Positions 23,161 to 28,372 of a stretch of DNA of 52,856 bases are shown here, in pieces (positions within the stretch are counted from its first letter, which is position 1; each line of letters opens with the position of its first letter). Both the position numbers and the translations under genes were made by a program. The stretch spans positions 1 through 52,856 of the forward strand of contig SVHD01000011.1 in NCBI GenBank assembly GCA_015056015.1. Reading direction: 5' to 3'. This DNA is from Clostridiales bacterium. Its GTDB lineage: Bacteria > Bacillota > Clostridia > Christensenellales > Aristaeellaceae. The notes under the pieces are model-generated. The model was not told the origin of the DNA. It did no database searches and saw nothing but the letters and a program-made list of their open reading frames with translations.

Positions 23161-23191
23161 CGGGCTGGAGCATGATCTCCGGCCCGTTTTT
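23161..23191 (+). terminator. Terminator after the CARDB-like gene
   Basis: Stem CGGGC-GGAG / CTCC-GCCCG with single-base bulges, followed by TTTTT. Confidence 0.7.
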
Positions 23192-23210
23192 GATGAATAA
23201 GGAGATAAGC

Positions 23211-23624
23211 ATGCTGAAATTGCTGATTGTGGATGGCCAGGGCGGCGGCATCGGCCGCCAGCTGGTGGAGGCCATCCGGAATGCAAAAATTCCCTGCCAG
23301 ATTACCGCCGTGGGTACCAATACCACCGCCACCGCCGCCATGCTCAAGGCCGGCGCGGATCAGGCGGCCACGGGGGAAAATTCCGTGGTGGTCTGCTGCC
23401 GGGATGCGGATGTGATTGCCGGGCCGGTGGGCATTGCCATTGCGGATTCTTTGCTTGGGGAAATCACCCCGAAAATGGCCCTGGCCATCGGGCAGAGCCG
23501 GGCAAAAAAGCTGCTGCTGCCGGTGAATCATTGCAATAATATCATCGTGGGGGTGGGCGATCTGGCCCTGCGCACGCTCACCGGCGAGGCGGTTTCCTAT
23601 CTTTCTGCCTTGACAAATGAATAA
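23211..23624 (+). CDS. DUF3842 family protein
   Basis: 137 residues starting MLKLLIVDGQGGGIGRQLV, with AAGGAG 8 bases upstream of ATG 23211. The N-terminus GQGGGIGRQLVE resembles a Rossmann dinucleotide loop. The block VGTNTTATAAMLKAGADQAATGENS and the ending GPVGIAIADSLLGEITP are typical of DUF3842, a small Clostridia-wide family of unknown function. The promoter for the downstream transporter lies across its last codons. Confidence 0.75.
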   Translation: MLKLLIVDGQGGGIGRQLVEAIRNAKIPCQITAVGTNTTATAAMLKAGADQAATGENSVVVCCRDADVIAGPVGIAIADSLLGEITPKMALAIGQSRAKKLLLPVNHCNNIIVGVGDLALRTLTGEAVSYLSALTNE

Positions 23625-23638
23625 GTACGCTTTATAAT
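23610..23638 (+). promoter_or_regulatory. Perfect consensus promoter before the ECF leader RNA
   Basis: TTGACA (23610-23615), exactly 17 bases, TATAAT (23633-23638). The -35 box lies inside the last codons of the DUF3842 gene. The predicted start, near 23645, coincides with the first base of the leader's closing stem. Confidence 0.88.
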
Positions 23639-23644
23639 CATGCT

Positions 23645-23773
23645 ATTCCAGCAGCGTGATGCAGGAAGCATCGCGGCCGGGCCGAAGCCCGGGATGCAGA
23701 CTGGAACGGAAAAAGCACACGAATTGAATGTCATGAAGGCATGGCCGCTTGGGCGGTTCATGCCTTTTTTCAT
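23645..23773 (+). ncRNA. Putative riboswitch-type leader RNA of the ECF transporter operon
   Basis: The leader can fold as a three-way junction. P1 is TTCCAG / CTGGAA (23646-23651 with 23701-23706). P2 is an 8-bp stem with loop AGGAA (23655-23662 with 23668-23675). P3 is CCGGGC / GCCCGG with a CGAA loop (23677-23692). The unpaired J3/1 strand reads GATGCAGA. About 30 bases later comes an intrinsic terminator, then the ribosome site and GTG start. GCGGCC in the aptamer (23673-23678) is the exact complement of GGCCGC in the terminator's 5' arm (23743-23748), offering an antiterminator pairing. It matches none of the riboswitch consensus sequences I know. Ligand unknown, presumably the compound carried by the transporter. 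Confidence 0.6.
23735..23770 (+). terminator. Terminator hairpin within the ECF leader
   Basis: AAGGCATG-CCGC / GCGG-CATGCCTT with a TTGG loop and small internal bulge, followed by TTTTTT; it ends 4 bases before the ribosome site GAGGAGG. Confidence 0.8.
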
Positions 23774-23788
23774 GAGGAGGATGATAGC

Positions 23789-24313
23789 GTGAAGAAATTG
23801 CAGGTAAAGAAACTGGTATTGGCCGGGGTATGCCTGGCGCTTTGCATGGTATTGCCCTTTCTGACCGGACAGATTCCCGAAATCGGCAGTAAATTATCGC
23901 CCATGCATATCCCGGTGTTTCTTTGCGGCTTTTTATGCGGCTGGCCCCTGGCCGCGCTGGTGGGGCTGATTGCGCCTGCTCTTCGTTTTTTGCTCTTTGG
24001 TATGCCGCCGCTTTTCCCCACCGGCGTTTCCATGATGGTGGAATTGGCGGTGTATGGTCTGGCGTCCGGGCTGCTGTATGTAAAATTGCCCCGGAAAATG
24101 CTTTCCATCTATATCGCGCTGATTGCATCCATGCTGCTGGGCCGCGCTGCCTGGGGCGCCATGCGCTATCTGCTGATGGCCTTTGGCTCTTCCTTTACCT
24201 TTCAGGCCTTCCTGGCCGGCGCCTTCCTGGATGCCTGGCCGGGTATCCTGTGCCATTTGCTGATCATCCCGCCGGTGGTCAGGGCGCTGGAGAAAGCGGG
24301 TGCCGTGAAATGA
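23789..24313 (+). CDS. ECF-type transporter substrate-binding (S) component
   Basis: 174 residues, nearly all membrane: about six helices. The N-terminus KKLQVKKLVLAGVCLALCMVLPFL with the early Ala/Leu-rich helix is typical of S components, which bind a vitamin and dock onto the shared EcfT/EcfA1/EcfA2 module (not in this window). Conserved family text is LSPMHIPVFLCGFLCGWPLA and MPPLFPTGVSMM. The start is GTG 23789 with GAGGAGG 8 bases upstream. The stop overlaps the kinase start, so uptake and phosphorylation are probably coupled. The substrate cannot be read from sequence; it could be pantothenate-, pyridoxine- or nucleoside-like. Confidence 0.85.
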   Translation: MKKLQVKKLVLAGVCLALCMVLPFLTGQIPEIGSKLSPMHIPVFLCGFLCGWPLAALVGLIAPALRFLLFGMPPLFPTGVSMMVELAVYGLASGLLYVKLPRKMLSIYIALIASMLLGRAAWGAMRYLLMAFGSSFTFQAFLAGAFLDAWPGILCHLLIIPPVVRALEKAGAVK

Positions 24314-24876
24314 CGGATGTTTTTGCCGCAGCGAAAAAAAGAATCGAAGAGGAACTGAAAAAGGGAACGCCTGTGATTCTGGCCCTGGAGGGCGGCGCGG
24401 CTACCGGAAAAAGCACCCTGGGCAAGCAGCTGGCGGATGAATTTCAGGCCCCGTTGATTTCCATGGATGATTTTTTTCTGCCCCCTGCCCTTCGCACGGA
24501 GGCCCGGTTTTCCCAGCCCGGGGGCAATATCCATTATGAGCGGTTTCACGATCAGGTGGCACAGGCCATCCGGAAGAATGAAGGCATCCGCTATCAGGTG
24601 TTCGATTGCGGTATCGGCGATTATGCCGGGATCCGGGAAATTGCCCCCTGTCCGCTTCTGATTGTGGAGGGGGTATACAGCCTGCATCCGGCCTACCGGG
24701 ATATCTATTCCCTGCGCTTCTTTTTAAAGACGACCCCGGAAACCCAGGATGCACGGCTTCACGCCCGGGGGGAATGGCTCTATGATCGCTTTCAATCCCT
24801 CTGGCTGCCCCTGGAAAGTGCCTATTTCGGGGCGGAAGACCTGGAAAAAGGTTGCGATCTGGTATTGGAAACATAA
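24310..24876 (+). CDS. Uridine-kinase-like P-loop kinase
   Basis: 188 residues. Walker A GGAATGKSTLGKQL is at about 27-40, followed by the substrate-lid and Asp motif SMDDFFLP and PGGNIHYERF. The block LLIVEGVYSLHP is characteristic of the uridine kinase/phosphoribulokinase group. The downstream DARLHARG is the Arg-lid region. It phosphorylates a small hydroxylated molecule with ATP in the cytoplasm. Overlapping the ECF S-component gene by 4 bases, it may trap the imported compound as a phosphate. A nucleoside-, pantothenate- or riboside-like substrate is possible; not determined. Confidence 0.8.
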   Translation: MTDVFAAAKKRIEEELKKGTPVILALEGGAATGKSTLGKQLADEFQAPLISMDDFFLPPALRTEARFSQPGGNIHYERFHDQVAQAIRKNEGIRYQVFDCGIGDYAGIREIAPCPLLIVEGVYSLHPAYRDIYSLRFFLKTTPETQDARLHARGEWLYDRFQSLWLPLESAYFGAEDLEKGCDLVLET

Positions 24877-24989: not shown

Positions 24990-25463
24990 TTGGCCGATCG
25001 CCAGGAATACGAGCGCGTCGCAGAGGAATCCCTGTCTGCGCTGTATAAAATCGCCATGGGCATGCTCCGCCAGGAGGCGGACGCCCGGGATGCGGTGCAG
25101 CAGGCCCTGCTCAAAGGATGGGAAAAGAAGGAATCCGCCCGGGAGGGCATGTTCCGCTGGTATTTAACCCGCATTCTGATCAATGAATGCCATAATATCC
25201 AGCGGCAGCGGATGCGGGTATTTCCCGTGGAAACGCCCCCGGATGCGGAAATTGAAAATCCCGATTATACAGATTTATACGCCGCCATTCACGCCCTTCC
25301 GGAGGATCTTCGCCTGCCGGTATTGGTGAAATATCTGCAGGGGGCATCCGAAAAGGAAGGCGCCATGGCCCTTGGCATACCGGTGACCACATTCAAAAAC
25401 AGGCTCCATCGTGCACGGAAAGCCTTACGGAAAATGCTGGATCAGGAGGTGATGTTTGAATGA
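24990..25463 (+). CDS. ECF-family sigma factor
   Basis: 157 residues with regions 2 and 4 only, as in ECF sigma factors. Region 2 spans YKIAMGMLRQEADARDAVQQALLKGWEK. Region 4 spans LPVLVKYLQGASEKEGAMALGIPVTTFKNRLHRARKAL, with a helix-turn-helix. The start is TTG 24990 with AGGGAGG 8 bases upstream. The stop overlaps the next start (ATGA), tying it to its membrane partner. It likely responds to an envelope signal. Confidence 0.9.
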   Translation: MADRQEYERVAEESLSALYKIAMGMLRQEADARDAVQQALLKGWEKKESAREGMFRWYLTRILINECHNIQRQRMRVFPVETPPDAEIENPDYTDLYAAIHALPEDLRLPVLVKYLQGASEKEGAMALGIPVTTFKNRLHRARKALRKMLDQEVMFE

Positions 25464-28372
25464 AGCGGGTTGTGAAAATCAATCAGGAAACCATTAACGC
25501 CGCGCTTCCTTCCATCCCTCAGGATTTTGAACGGGATATGCGCGATATGATTGCGCGTCTTCCCCAACAGAGAAAGGAAACGCCCGTCATGAAAAGAAAG
25601 ATTTCAGTGGGTTTGGTTTTTGCGCTGGTGCTGATGCTGATGGCGGTCAGCGCCCTGGCTGCCGTTTTGCTGGGGGGCAAGGATTTTGTGGATCAGATCA
25701 TGGCCCCCATGGCCCAGGAAAATATGGACGAAAATAAATACACCAATGCGCAGATTGAAGAAATCCTGCGCATCGCGGAGGAAAATGATATCCATCTGCC
25801 CGATCATCTCCTGGAAACCCTGGCCCGATCGGATGATGGCTATTACAAGGAAGAATTGATGCGCCAGTTCGTGAAAACGGAATATGGCTTCTATCCCTCC
25901 GCATGGCCCCTGGAAGTGCAGCACTGGTATGAAGAAATGCTGGAGGCCTGCGGCCAGGGGGATGGGCATATTGCCAATGTGCTTCCCGAAGGGGAAAATG
26001 AGCTGACCAAGGAACAGGCCCTGCAGGCCGCCCTTGATTTTATCAAAGCCACCTATCATGAAGCGGCCGATCTGACCGATCCTGCCCATTACCGGGTGCA
26101 TATGCAGTATACCGAAACCATCGTCAATCCTTATCTGAAGGAAAGAAACTGGTGGTTCGAATTTGAAGCGTTGGATGTTGTTTCCAATATCTATTATCTT
26201 ACCATGAAGCAGGATGGCACGGTGGACAGCCACAGCATCTGCGGCGGCATTTACGCCCCCTCCTGGCAGATGCCCGGGCAATTCATTTCCGACCGTTTCG
26301 CCTGGACTTACGGCGATGGCTACGGCCAGACCATGTGGACCACTGAAAGACTGCAGGAATTCCAGAAGGCCCTGCAGCACCGGGTGGATACCGAAGGGGA
26401 AGAGGGCATCATCGCCAGGGAAAAGCATGCCCTGCATCAGACCTATCTGACCTACGATGAAAATACCATGATTCCTGCGGAACAGGCCAAGCAGATCGCC
26501 CAGGATTTTATGAAGGATTATACCCTGGCCCCGGCCTATAATGCCAATACCCCCATCATCCTCATGCAGGGGGAAAAGGGCCCCATCTGGAAAACCATGG
26601 TTACCGTGGAAAAGGATGGCACCCGCCTGGGCCGCGCCTTCATCGAAATGGACGCCCGTACCGGGGAAATCACCGCCAGCGATACCACCTTTGAAAGCTA
26701 TCGGGAATGGCGCATTTACGTTACCGAAGCCTACTGGGAAAAGAATAAGCCCGCTGAGACTTCTGCCTGGGTCAATCCCAATCCCACGCCCCGGCCGGAC
26801 GGAAAGCCCTGGATGTGGGATAACGAAATGTTCCCTGCTTGGTATTGGGAAAAGCTGGATGCAGTGAATTATAACGGCGATACCGCCAGCGATCTCATGA
26901 ATGGCTGGTATCAGGATTATGGATTGGATTCCCTCTTCTGGCCCCTGGAGGCCCAGGCCATCGATTATTACTGGCATCAGATTTATTCCGAAGGGGATAT
27001 CGTTTTCCCCGGCCTGCCCTCCGATACCGATATCACCCAGGAGCAGGCCGTGGAAAAGGCCCGGACGGAATGGGAAAAGCTCCATGGCGATGTGCTGGGC
27101 GAACTGGGCATTGAGGAAATCACCATGGATGATGTGATCTGCGGCGTTTCCTTCTGGTTCAATAAGCCTGCAGAGGGCAAGAATTGCTGGCAGATTACCC
27201 TGATGAATCAAAGCGGCGGCGTTTTAGGCACGGTTTATCTGGATGCCGCCACCGGCAGGGTGCTGGCCAATGGCCTTTGGAAGGATGATATGGAGGCCCT
27301 GCTCTCCGGCAAGCCCGCAAGCTGGTATAATGCCAGCTTCCCGGATTGGTTCTGGGAAAAGCTGGATGCGGTGAATTATAATGCCGATACCGCCGGGGAT
27401 CTGTATGGCAGCTGGCAGGCGGAATATGGGGAATTGATCGATTTCTGGCCCTTTGAATATCAGGCCATCGATTATCTGTGGCATGAGGCTGCTTCCCTTC
27501 ACGGGGATTCCCCCGCCATCAAGGGCCTGCCCGCCGATACGGATATCACCAAAGAACAGGCCTTGGAAATTGCCGCTGCGGCGTTTAAGGAAACCTACGG
27601 GGAAGGGATGAAGAAAGAAAAGAATATCAGCGCCGATGAGCTGGTTTACAGTGTTTCCTATTGGTTCAATGAGCCCCAGGCCGGCACGAATGCCTATGAG
27701 ATCAAGCCGGTGAAGGATGGGAAATTATACGGCATCATCTGGGTGAATGCGGAGAATGGCGAATTGGAGGGCATGGGCTGCTGGGATGAAAAAGTGGTGC
27801 TCTTTAACCAGGCCACTCCGGCGCCCTCACCCACGCCCGGGCCCGACGGCTTCCCCTGGTTCTGGGGTGATCCTTCCATTCCCGCCGCCCATTGGGATGC
27901 CCTGGAAAAGGCCATGCAGGAAATGGGCATTACCCCGGATACCCTGGACGCTTATGTGGAAACCTGGAAAACGGGCAATCCCCCTGCCATGCGGGATGGG
28001 GATCTGAATCAATTCTGGCCCCAGACCCCCAAGGCCATTCATCATACCTTCTATAATTGGTCGCCGAAACAGGACAGCGGCCATTATATGATGGTGGAGG
28101 GCGAGGACGGTACCATCAGCCAGGCATTGGCCGCGAAAATCGGGGATGAAGCATTCAAGGCCTATTGCCAGGGCAAGGTGGATATGGAATGGGTGGATTC
28201 CCTGGCGGTTTCCTATTGCCTCTGGAATGAGGAGGAAACCACGGGGCAGCCCTACTGGCTGATCCAGTATCATGACCTCAGTGATGTTTTCAATACCCGG
28301 GGCTGGGTGAAGGTGGACGCCAAAACCGGCGAAATTCTTCTCCTGGAGCTGGATCTGTTCTCCAACGGATGA
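25460..28372 (+). CDS. Giant membrane anti-sigma/sensor protein with repeated PepSY-like modules
   Basis: 970 residues, coupled to the ECF sigma gene by a 4-base overlap. Residues 1-48 are cytoplasmic (DFERDMRDMIARL looks like a sigma-binding helix). One membrane helix spans about 50-75, and the rest is outside the cell. The outside part repeats a unit of about 175 residues: FPAWYWEKLDAVNYNGDTAS (about 455) and FPDWFWEKLDAVNYNADTAG (about 625), then a diverged copy beginning FPWFWGDPSIPAAHWDALEK (about 796). Each unit ends in a PepSY-like strand-helix (TREQAL..A / VDAKTGEI). Pro-rich linkers separate the modules. By position and topology it is an anti-sigma factor; the ligand is unknown. Confidence 0.8.
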   Translation: MKRVVKINQETINAALPSIPQDFERDMRDMIARLPQQRKETPVMKRKISVGLVFALVLMLMAVSALAAVLLGGKDFVDQIMAPMAQENMDENKYTNAQIEEILRIAEENDIHLPDHLLETLARSDDGYYKEELMRQFVKTEYGFYPSAWPLEVQHWYEEMLEACGQGDGHIANVLPEGENELTKEQALQAALDFIKATYHEAADLTDPAHYRVHMQYTETIVNPYLKERNWWFEFEALDVVSNIYYLTMKQDGTVDSHSICGGIYAPSWQMPGQFISDRFAWTYGDGYGQTMWTTERLQEFQKALQHRVDTEGEEGIIAREKHALHQTYLTYDENTMIPAEQAKQIAQDFMKDYTLAPAYNANTPIILMQGEKGPIWKTMVTVEKDGTRLGRAFIEMDARTGEITASDTTFESYREWRIYVTEAYWEKNKPAETSAWVNPNPTPRPDGKPWMWDNEMFPAWYWEKLDAVNYNGDTASDLMNGWYQDYGLDSLFWPLEAQAIDYYWHQIYSEGDIVFPGLPSDTDITQEQAVEKARTEWEKLHGDVLGELGIEEITMDDVICGVSFWFNKPAEGKNCWQITLMNQSGGVLGTVYLDAATGRVLANGLWKDDMEALLSGKPASWYNASFPDWFWEKLDAVNYNADTAGDLYGSWQAEYGELIDFWPFEYQAIDYLWHEAASLHGDSPAIKGLPADTDITKEQALEIAAAAFKETYGEGMKKEKNISADELVYSVSYWFNEPQAGTNAYEIKPVKDGKLYGIIWVNAENGELEGMGCWDEKVVLFNQATPAPSPTPGPDGFPWFWGDPSIPAAHWDALEKAMQEMGITPDTLDAYVETWKTGNPPAMRDGDLNQFWPQTPKAIHHTFYNWSPKQDSGHYMMVEGEDGTISQALAAKIGDEAFKAYCQGKVDMEWVDSLAVSYCLWNEEETTGQPYWLIQYHDLSDVFNTRGWVKVDAKTGEILLLELDLFSNG

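Follow-up and report, generated by a model that had tools for sequence, protein, structure and literature searches.

An attenuator RNA family of paired GAA-loop hairpins preceding nickel and nickel-pincer nucleotide genes in Clostridia

Within a 52,856-nucleotide stretch of DNA from a Clostridiales bacterium (contig SVHD01000011.1; the window), a structured leader precedes an ECF transporter S component gene, which raises the question of what kind of regulatory RNA this leader is and what it responds to. All of its parts lie on the plus strand. The leader directly follows a DUF3842 (PF12953) gene (23172..23624, likely start ATG at 23211; Pfam, 164.7 bits), and its σ70-type promoter, TTGACA-17-TATAAT (23610..23638), matches the consensus at 12 of 12 positions. 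The parts that follow are the 5′ strand TTCCAG (23646..23651) of a closing stem, P1; hairpin H1, CGTGATGC-AGGAA-GCATCGCG (23655..23675); hairpin H2, CCGGGC-CGAA-GCCCGG (23677..23692); the unpaired strand GATGCAGA (23693..23700); the 3′ strand of P1, CTGGAA (23701..23706); a third hairpin, H3, ATGTC-ATGAA-GGCAT (23728..23742); an intrinsic terminator (23738..23770; apex loop TTGG); and the ribosome-binding site GAGGAGG (23774..23780). The loops of H1 and H2 are both closed by a C-G pair, and the 4-bp cores of the two hairpins are separated by 7 nt. The S component gene (23789..24313, GTG start at 23789) encodes a protein that matches PF12822 above cut-off (64 bits) and the FolT family TIGR04518 below it (31 bits; cut-off 60). 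The ATG of the next gene, for a P-loop kinase of the uridine-kinase-like kind (24310..24876), overlaps the S gene stop; the kinase has no Pfam match at 0.001 and only sub-cut-off NCBIfam matches to kinases. Just 3′ of the kinase gene are genes for an ECF-type sigma factor and then a 970-aa protein with a PepSY domain match (24990-28372), a pair with no relation to the leader as far as seen.

A first-pass annotation of the window had described the promoter, the hairpins with AGGAA and CGAA loops, the GATGCAGA strand, the terminator and GAGGAGG, all of which were found where it had placed them, and the part of its reading by which a cis-regulatory RNA precedes the ECF S component and kinase genes is upheld; it had overlooked H3, the conserved alternative to the terminator. 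The predicted fold of the RNA is more stable than 200 of 200 shuffled sequences both for 23644-23776 (z -3.4) and for 23644-23710 (z -3.7), and in the minimum free energy (MFE) fold H1 and H2 form a junction closed by TTCCAG/CTGGAA. Rfam 15 gave no match at gathering cut-off across the whole window. Relaxing the threshold to E ≤ 10 for 23500-23900 brought no convincing hit: the best one lay on the minus strand, was to a viral 3′UTR pseudoknot model (E 0.039; 23 bits, cut-off 39) and was taken as chance. At E ≤ 2, 14 related loci yielded two matches, both irrelevant. The leader thus matches none of the classes in Rfam 15, and on this point the first-pass annotation was right.

Relatives were drawn from 80 S-gene loci on genome contigs and 26 places from the genus (window included; one duplicates L002), and many of their leaders carry C-G-closed hairpins with A- and G-rich loops. 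When 1.08 Mb was scanned on both strands with a loop list picked after reading these same leaders, 19 of 20 hairpin clusters fell in the leaders of an S gene, an S operon or, at L012:4727, a methyltransferase gene. First MAFFT alignments (A1 and A2), in which loop lengths were mixed, were dropped because tetraloops were misplaced, and for this reason a covariance model of H1-H2 (R1) was built from nine pentaloop sites; a second model (R2) comprises 16 sites fitted to R1. In 250 genomes of the family, R1 recovered the six known genus sites and found L119, L130, L134 and L136, before S genes, and L120, before a FecCD permease gene; the other 19 of the 30 loci (L121-L129, L131-L133, L135, L137-L142) were judged to be chance. 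In 39 genomes of S-gene loci R1 added L146, L149 and L164, all before genes for a small protein here termed MACF, and its matches there other than L143-L147, L149 and L164 were judged to be chance. R2 reported 11 places in 396 genomes of the order (seven new, six accepted) and 11 in 391 genomes of the class (nine new, seven accepted), for 16 new places and 13 acceptances overall in these overlapping sets. The 13 were found by the model without gene information and accepted after the promoter, H3 and gene had been viewed; L180, L189 and L190, inside open frames of at least 331 aa, and L205 and L206, further matches in the window's own genome, were judged to be chance.

An accepted R2 match lies in eight of the 80 S-gene loci (L002, L012, L015, L022, L030, L033, L039 and L048), and inspection by eye contributed L004, L023, L053 and the leader of the S gene in L012. 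In all, 36 sites were gathered, window included, and counts made from this set are lower bounds. L007, L031, L038, L045 and L087, which look degenerate or like translational variants, were left out; L134 (before an S gene) and L164 (before MACF) are true sites that stand outside the counts, and since both scored only 20-26 bits, among chance matches, weaker unread R1 matches in the 250 genomes may hide more sites. An automatic finder of H3 and terminators returned wrong or missed hairpins at several sites and no terminator for L039, L130, L183 and L188; it searched only the region 3′ of H2 and was therefore blind to the compact form of L130 and L188. Because the finder was unreliable, the H3 set was read by eye (22 of the 36 sites, with a pentaloop).

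The conserved unit predicted from these sites is a pair of adjacent hairpins, H1 and H2, together with the third hairpin, H3. The H1 loop is ANGAA in 24 of 36 sites and the H2 loop NGAA in 30, with ACGA and ACAA among the variants; in 27 sites a gap of 7 or 8 nt separates the 4-bp cores of the two hairpins. A −10-like box (at least 4/6) ends 4-15 nt 5′ of the H1 core in 30 sites (the window, at 20 nt, is an exception), so H1 should sit at the 5′ terminus of the transcript or close to it. Further 3′, H3 has the consensus TATGTC-ATGAA-GGCATG, and its 3′ strand begins the 5′ arm of the terminator. In a fair share of the sites the terminator apex forms a c-NGAA-g hairpin of its own (H4). The resulting H3-H4 pair is matched by R1 as well in L022 (E 0.0032), L136 (0.013) and, weakly, L004 (0.3), and a unit of the H1-H2 type thus seems to be repeated over the terminator.

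Covariation was counted in hand-picked and model-fitted sets of related sequences. In the first nine sites, picked by hand as hairpins, 7 of 10 H1-H2 base pairs are changed on both sides. In the 16-site alignment (A4), fitted to the model, 8 of 10 are (1 of 500 shuffles as high), with 38 doubly changed cells against 12.7 in shuffles (0 of 500 as high) and 95% of cells paired against 23-41% in slid controls; these H1-H2 counts are biased upward, the R1 sites having been chosen for visible hairpins and the R2 sites fitted to R1. In H3, taken from 22 sites (20 distinct) also hand-picked as hairpins, 5 of 6 pairs are doubly changed, a count reached in 17 of 500 shuffles. Its doubly changed cells number 18, compared with 5.8 in shuffles, none of 500 of which reached that figure, and 92.5% of its cells are paired against 13-51% in slid controls. 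The helices named P2 and P3 in the first-pass annotation, which are H1 and H2, therefore do covary across relatives. That the RNA family is real is close to certain; it is an attenuator RNA family of Clostridia that Rfam does not list.

The element recurs in several bacterial families before genes for nickel uptake and for synthesis of nickel-pincer nucleotide (NPN). The 13 accepted R2 sites precede S genes (L175, L176, L179, L182, L183, L187), MACF genes (L177, L184, L186), FecCD genes (L178, L185), a gene for a NikA-like binding protein (L181; 148 bits to nickel_nikA, its closest NCBIfam model, which has a cut-off of 393) and a DUF3842 gene (L188). The operon at L198 reads FecCD, ABC ATPase, binding protein, LarE, LarB, LarC, with its Lar proteins above NCBIfam cut-offs (LarE 236 over 150, LarB 294 over 175, LarC 211 over 90); L196 and L201 have MACF, a small membrane-like protein, LarE, LarB and LarC; L195 has MACF with LarB, LarC and LarE; and L202 has MACF, a small protein, S and LarC. 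The LarC of L033 also passes its Pfam cut-off; the names of the remaining Lar genes rest on similarity judged by eye. In 21 of the 80 loci a LarC gene lies close to the S gene. LarB, LarC and LarE make NPN (PMC11796402, in excerpt), and the occurrence of Lar operons and putative nickel transporters under one motif points to nickel and its NPN cofactor as the common theme, so that a nickel/NPN regulon is very probable. The gene context elsewhere is thus not one of pantothenate, pyridoxine or nucleosides, the candidate ligands named in the first-pass annotation.

Genes for MACF (~120-150 aa) and for a membrane-like protein (~105 aa) repeatedly co-occur 5′ of lar genes or of the S gene (L196:8002-8771 on the reverse strand, L033:1738-2458, L177, L186, L201); neither protein belongs to a Pfam or NCBIfam family, and a nickel-uptake or NPN-related pair is possible. 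At L012:4727 and L173:422-6566 a copy of the element stands before a gene for a class I SAM methyltransferase together with genes for an ABC transporter of the Nik/Opp type, possibly a metallophore-linked nickel system. Lar_N proteins above cut-off occur in 21 of 31 motif genomes and in 12 of 23 others, which is weakly in favor, and the tie to NPN use is therefore loose. The window's own genome, 84.5% complete, encodes a LarA-like protein (Lar_N, above cut-off; G000 contig C24:83517-84125, L207) and has no LarC match. It is speculation that LarA without LarC, together with the S component and kinase, fits salvage of the NPN cofactor or its nucleoside; organisms with LarA and no LarC may then salvage the cofactor.

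The switch of this family is formed by H3 and the terminator. In the window the two share 23738-23742 and are, by sequence, mutually exclusive; H3 alone is worth −2.5 kcal/mol and the terminator −16.7 kcal/mol. Folded in silico at increasing lengths, the transcript forms H3 with its end at 23742 or 23756 and a different hairpin in that region with its end at 23748; H3 is gone once 23764 has been made. No alternative partner was seen for the 5′ strand of H3, which nevertheless covaries with the 3′ strand; H3 thus looks selected as an antiterminator. Because the terminator far outweighs it, something must hold H3, and binding should then mean ON. In the compact variants L130 and L188, read by eye, the terminator takes the 5′ strand and loop of H1, and H1 is the antiterminator; compact and full-length designs alike imply that transcription continues when the hairpins are held. 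Binding would therefore probably switch expression on. The switch proposed earlier, in which GCGGCC (23673-23678) pairs with GGCCGC (23743-23748), has its exact complement in the window and is specific to that sequence: over the 36 sites the longest complement is 5.56, no better than the chance level of 5.52 that mispaired sites give. What relatives conserve as a switch is instead the choice between H3 and the terminator.

DUF3842 draws attention as a candidate for the factor that holds H3. Its gene is directly upstream of 15 of the 36 sites, which are not independent since several belong to one genus, and directly downstream of two; it is directly upstream of L134 as well. No DUF3842 match lies directly beside 19 of the 36 sites within the locus stretches examined, and the gene is near the S gene in 18 of the 80 loci anyway. 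All 21 motif genomes tested encode DUF3842, against 12 of 19 others (Fisher p 0.0027), a comparison in which the 19 controls all come from the window's family and may hide undetected copies of the motif, whereas the motif genomes span many families. The protein has a predicted Rossmann-like fold and no recognized RNA-binding domain, and could instead be an enzyme of the same pathway. We consider a protein binder somewhat more plausible than any other kind, and the lead candidate, DUF3842, less likely than not to be that protein. Slightly more doubtful still is the full proposal that DUF3842 founds a hitherto unrecognized class of antiterminator proteins that bind RNA. With its small Rossmann fold it would sense a pyridinium nucleotide (NPN or its precursor NaAD) and clamp the GAA-loop hairpin pairs when the cofactor is short; nickel uptake and NPN synthesis would thereby be turned on, as would, by way of the S component and kinase, salvage of NPN or its nucleoside.

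The best explanation overall, which we rate at about even odds, is a transcription attenuation element of the nickel/NPN regulon, worked by a trans-acting factor that is most likely a protein, with DUF3842 as first candidate. The mechanism is inferred from sequence in each of its elements: binding of any kind, its positive sense, the factor being a protein, its identity with DUF3842, and the signal sensed. With no factor bound, RNA polymerase would stop at the terminator. The factor, most likely a protein active when nickel or NPN is short and with DUF3842 the first to consider, would bind the paired GAA-loop hairpins, taking H1-H2 as the nascent 5′ end emerges and then H3; with H3 held, the terminator would be blocked, and the S component and kinase would be made.

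The strongest competitor, possible though clearly less likely, is a metabolite or metal riboswitch: a ligand, be it Ni2+, NPN, a precursor or some signal of scarcity, would be bound directly by the pairs of GAA-loop hairpins and would thereby stabilize the antiterminator. The position of the element and its genes are riboswitch-like, no protein partner is proven, and the two similar hairpins, with their constrained loops and a core spacing that holds in 27 of 36 sites, would suit such a design; guanidine-II provides a two-stem-loop precedent (PMC7266159, in excerpt). Little conservation is seen beyond the hairpins, however, the loops vary (ANGAA, NGAA, ACGA, ACAA), no Rfam riboswitch matches, and binding seems to favor H3, the ON state; were nickel or NPN the ligand, genes of uptake and synthesis would then respond in the wrong direction. 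Of the proposed new riboswitch, then, the RNA family absent from Rfam stands; the RNA may bind a small molecule, but the ON logic suits a protein better. Guanidine-II (mini-ykkC) RNAs have the consensus ACGR in both loops. The present element resembles them in its two similar stem-loops with constrained loops, and 3 of 36 H1 loops are ACGA, but none of the 36 sites has ACGR in both loops, no Rfam match was obtained, and the genes here are those of nickel/NPN and transport. The NiCo (czcD) riboswitch, which shares a metal-related gene context, is a four-way junction, unlike the tandem hairpins described here, and has no Rfam match in these leaders. THF riboswitches precede folT-type ECF genes, and the leader studied here likewise belongs to an S component weakly resembling FolT; it differs from them in anatomy and regulon and in lacking an Rfam match.

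It is improbable that this is an ordinary leader without a switch, whose 5′ hairpins protect the mRNA and whose terminator provides fixed attenuation: at most sites H1 lies near where transcription should begin, as in mRNA stabilizers, but this reading leaves unexplained the GAA loops, the unit repeated over the terminator, the covarying H3 and the narrow gene set. Even less probable is the reading first given for the window, a three-way-junction aptamer closed by TTCCAG/CTGGAA and switching through GCGGCC/GGCCGC. The closing stem is present in the window, where the MFE fold contains the junction, and L084 has an analogous one. Over the 36 sites the P1 helix score is slightly above that of mispaired strands (mean 9.97 against 9.31, p 0.044), but the excess is carried by few sites, with L084 and the window at the top, and with the −10-like box so close to the H1 core in 30 of the 36 sites, a 5′ closing strand would hardly fit there. 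Relatives share P1 weakly at best, and a closed three-way junction is therefore not the general anatomy; with the GCGGCC pairing no better than chance, both P1 and that switch were dropped after testing over the 36 sites.

The least probable regulator is an ANTAR response regulator bound to two hairpins, the second of which overlaps the terminator: the logic is shared (one of two hairpins exclusive with the terminator; PMC3369931 and PMC8934654, in excerpt) and a few H3 hexaloops have A1 and G4 (ATTGAA in L048 and L186, AGGGGA in L012), but both genome presence and loops disfavor it, ANTAR domains being found in 9 of 20 motif genomes (absent from G728, 100% complete, and G070, 99%) and in 5 of 13 of an overlapping motif-genome set, with none in the window's own genome (84.5% complete), and none of the H1 or H2 loops of the 36 sites being an A1..G4 hexaloop. 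According to PMC3369931, both hairpins of an ANTAR target carry hexanucleotide loops in which position 1 is A and position 4 is G. The targets of EutV, NasR and AmiR resemble the present element in having two small hairpins with conserved loop bases, one over the terminator, and ANTAR binding there means antitermination. They differ in that H1 and H2 here have mostly penta- (ANGAA) and tetraloops (NGAA), with A1/G4 hexaloops in only a few H3 hairpins; in that the full-length element has a complete hairpin pair 5′ of the pair over the terminator; and in that 11 of 20 motif genomes yielded no ANTAR match. The element would be a second two-hairpin antiterminator design besides ANTAR.

The literature searched, which was without preprints and largely without subscription journals, turned up no regulation at the RNA level for genes of the nickel-pincer cofactor, and no paper in it names DUF3842. 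The element may already be among the motifs of Weinberg et al. 2017, reportedly 224 in number. Judged by titles and the openings of abstracts, none of the papers retrieved on nickel, riboswitches (orphan ones included), lactate racemase, LarC, ECF or regulons presents such an element; by word search, riboswitch, regulat and transporter are absent from PMC11796402, and nickel from PMC7266159, PMC11109978 and PMC8632094. The element ties together LarB/C/E, three transporter families, the ECF S component, the kinase and DUF3842, and gives each a testable function.

Two further leader forms were seen. In variant leaders 5′ of the S gene at L031, L038 and L087, a CTCCC between the hairpins could pair with the GGGAG of the ribosome site, which suggests a translational version of the switch. 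A very short version of the leader occurs at L119:1501-2755, where pairing of CCAAAAA with TTTTTGG could mask the ribosome site; a gene for a TrmO-type tRNA methyltransferase comes after the S gene there.
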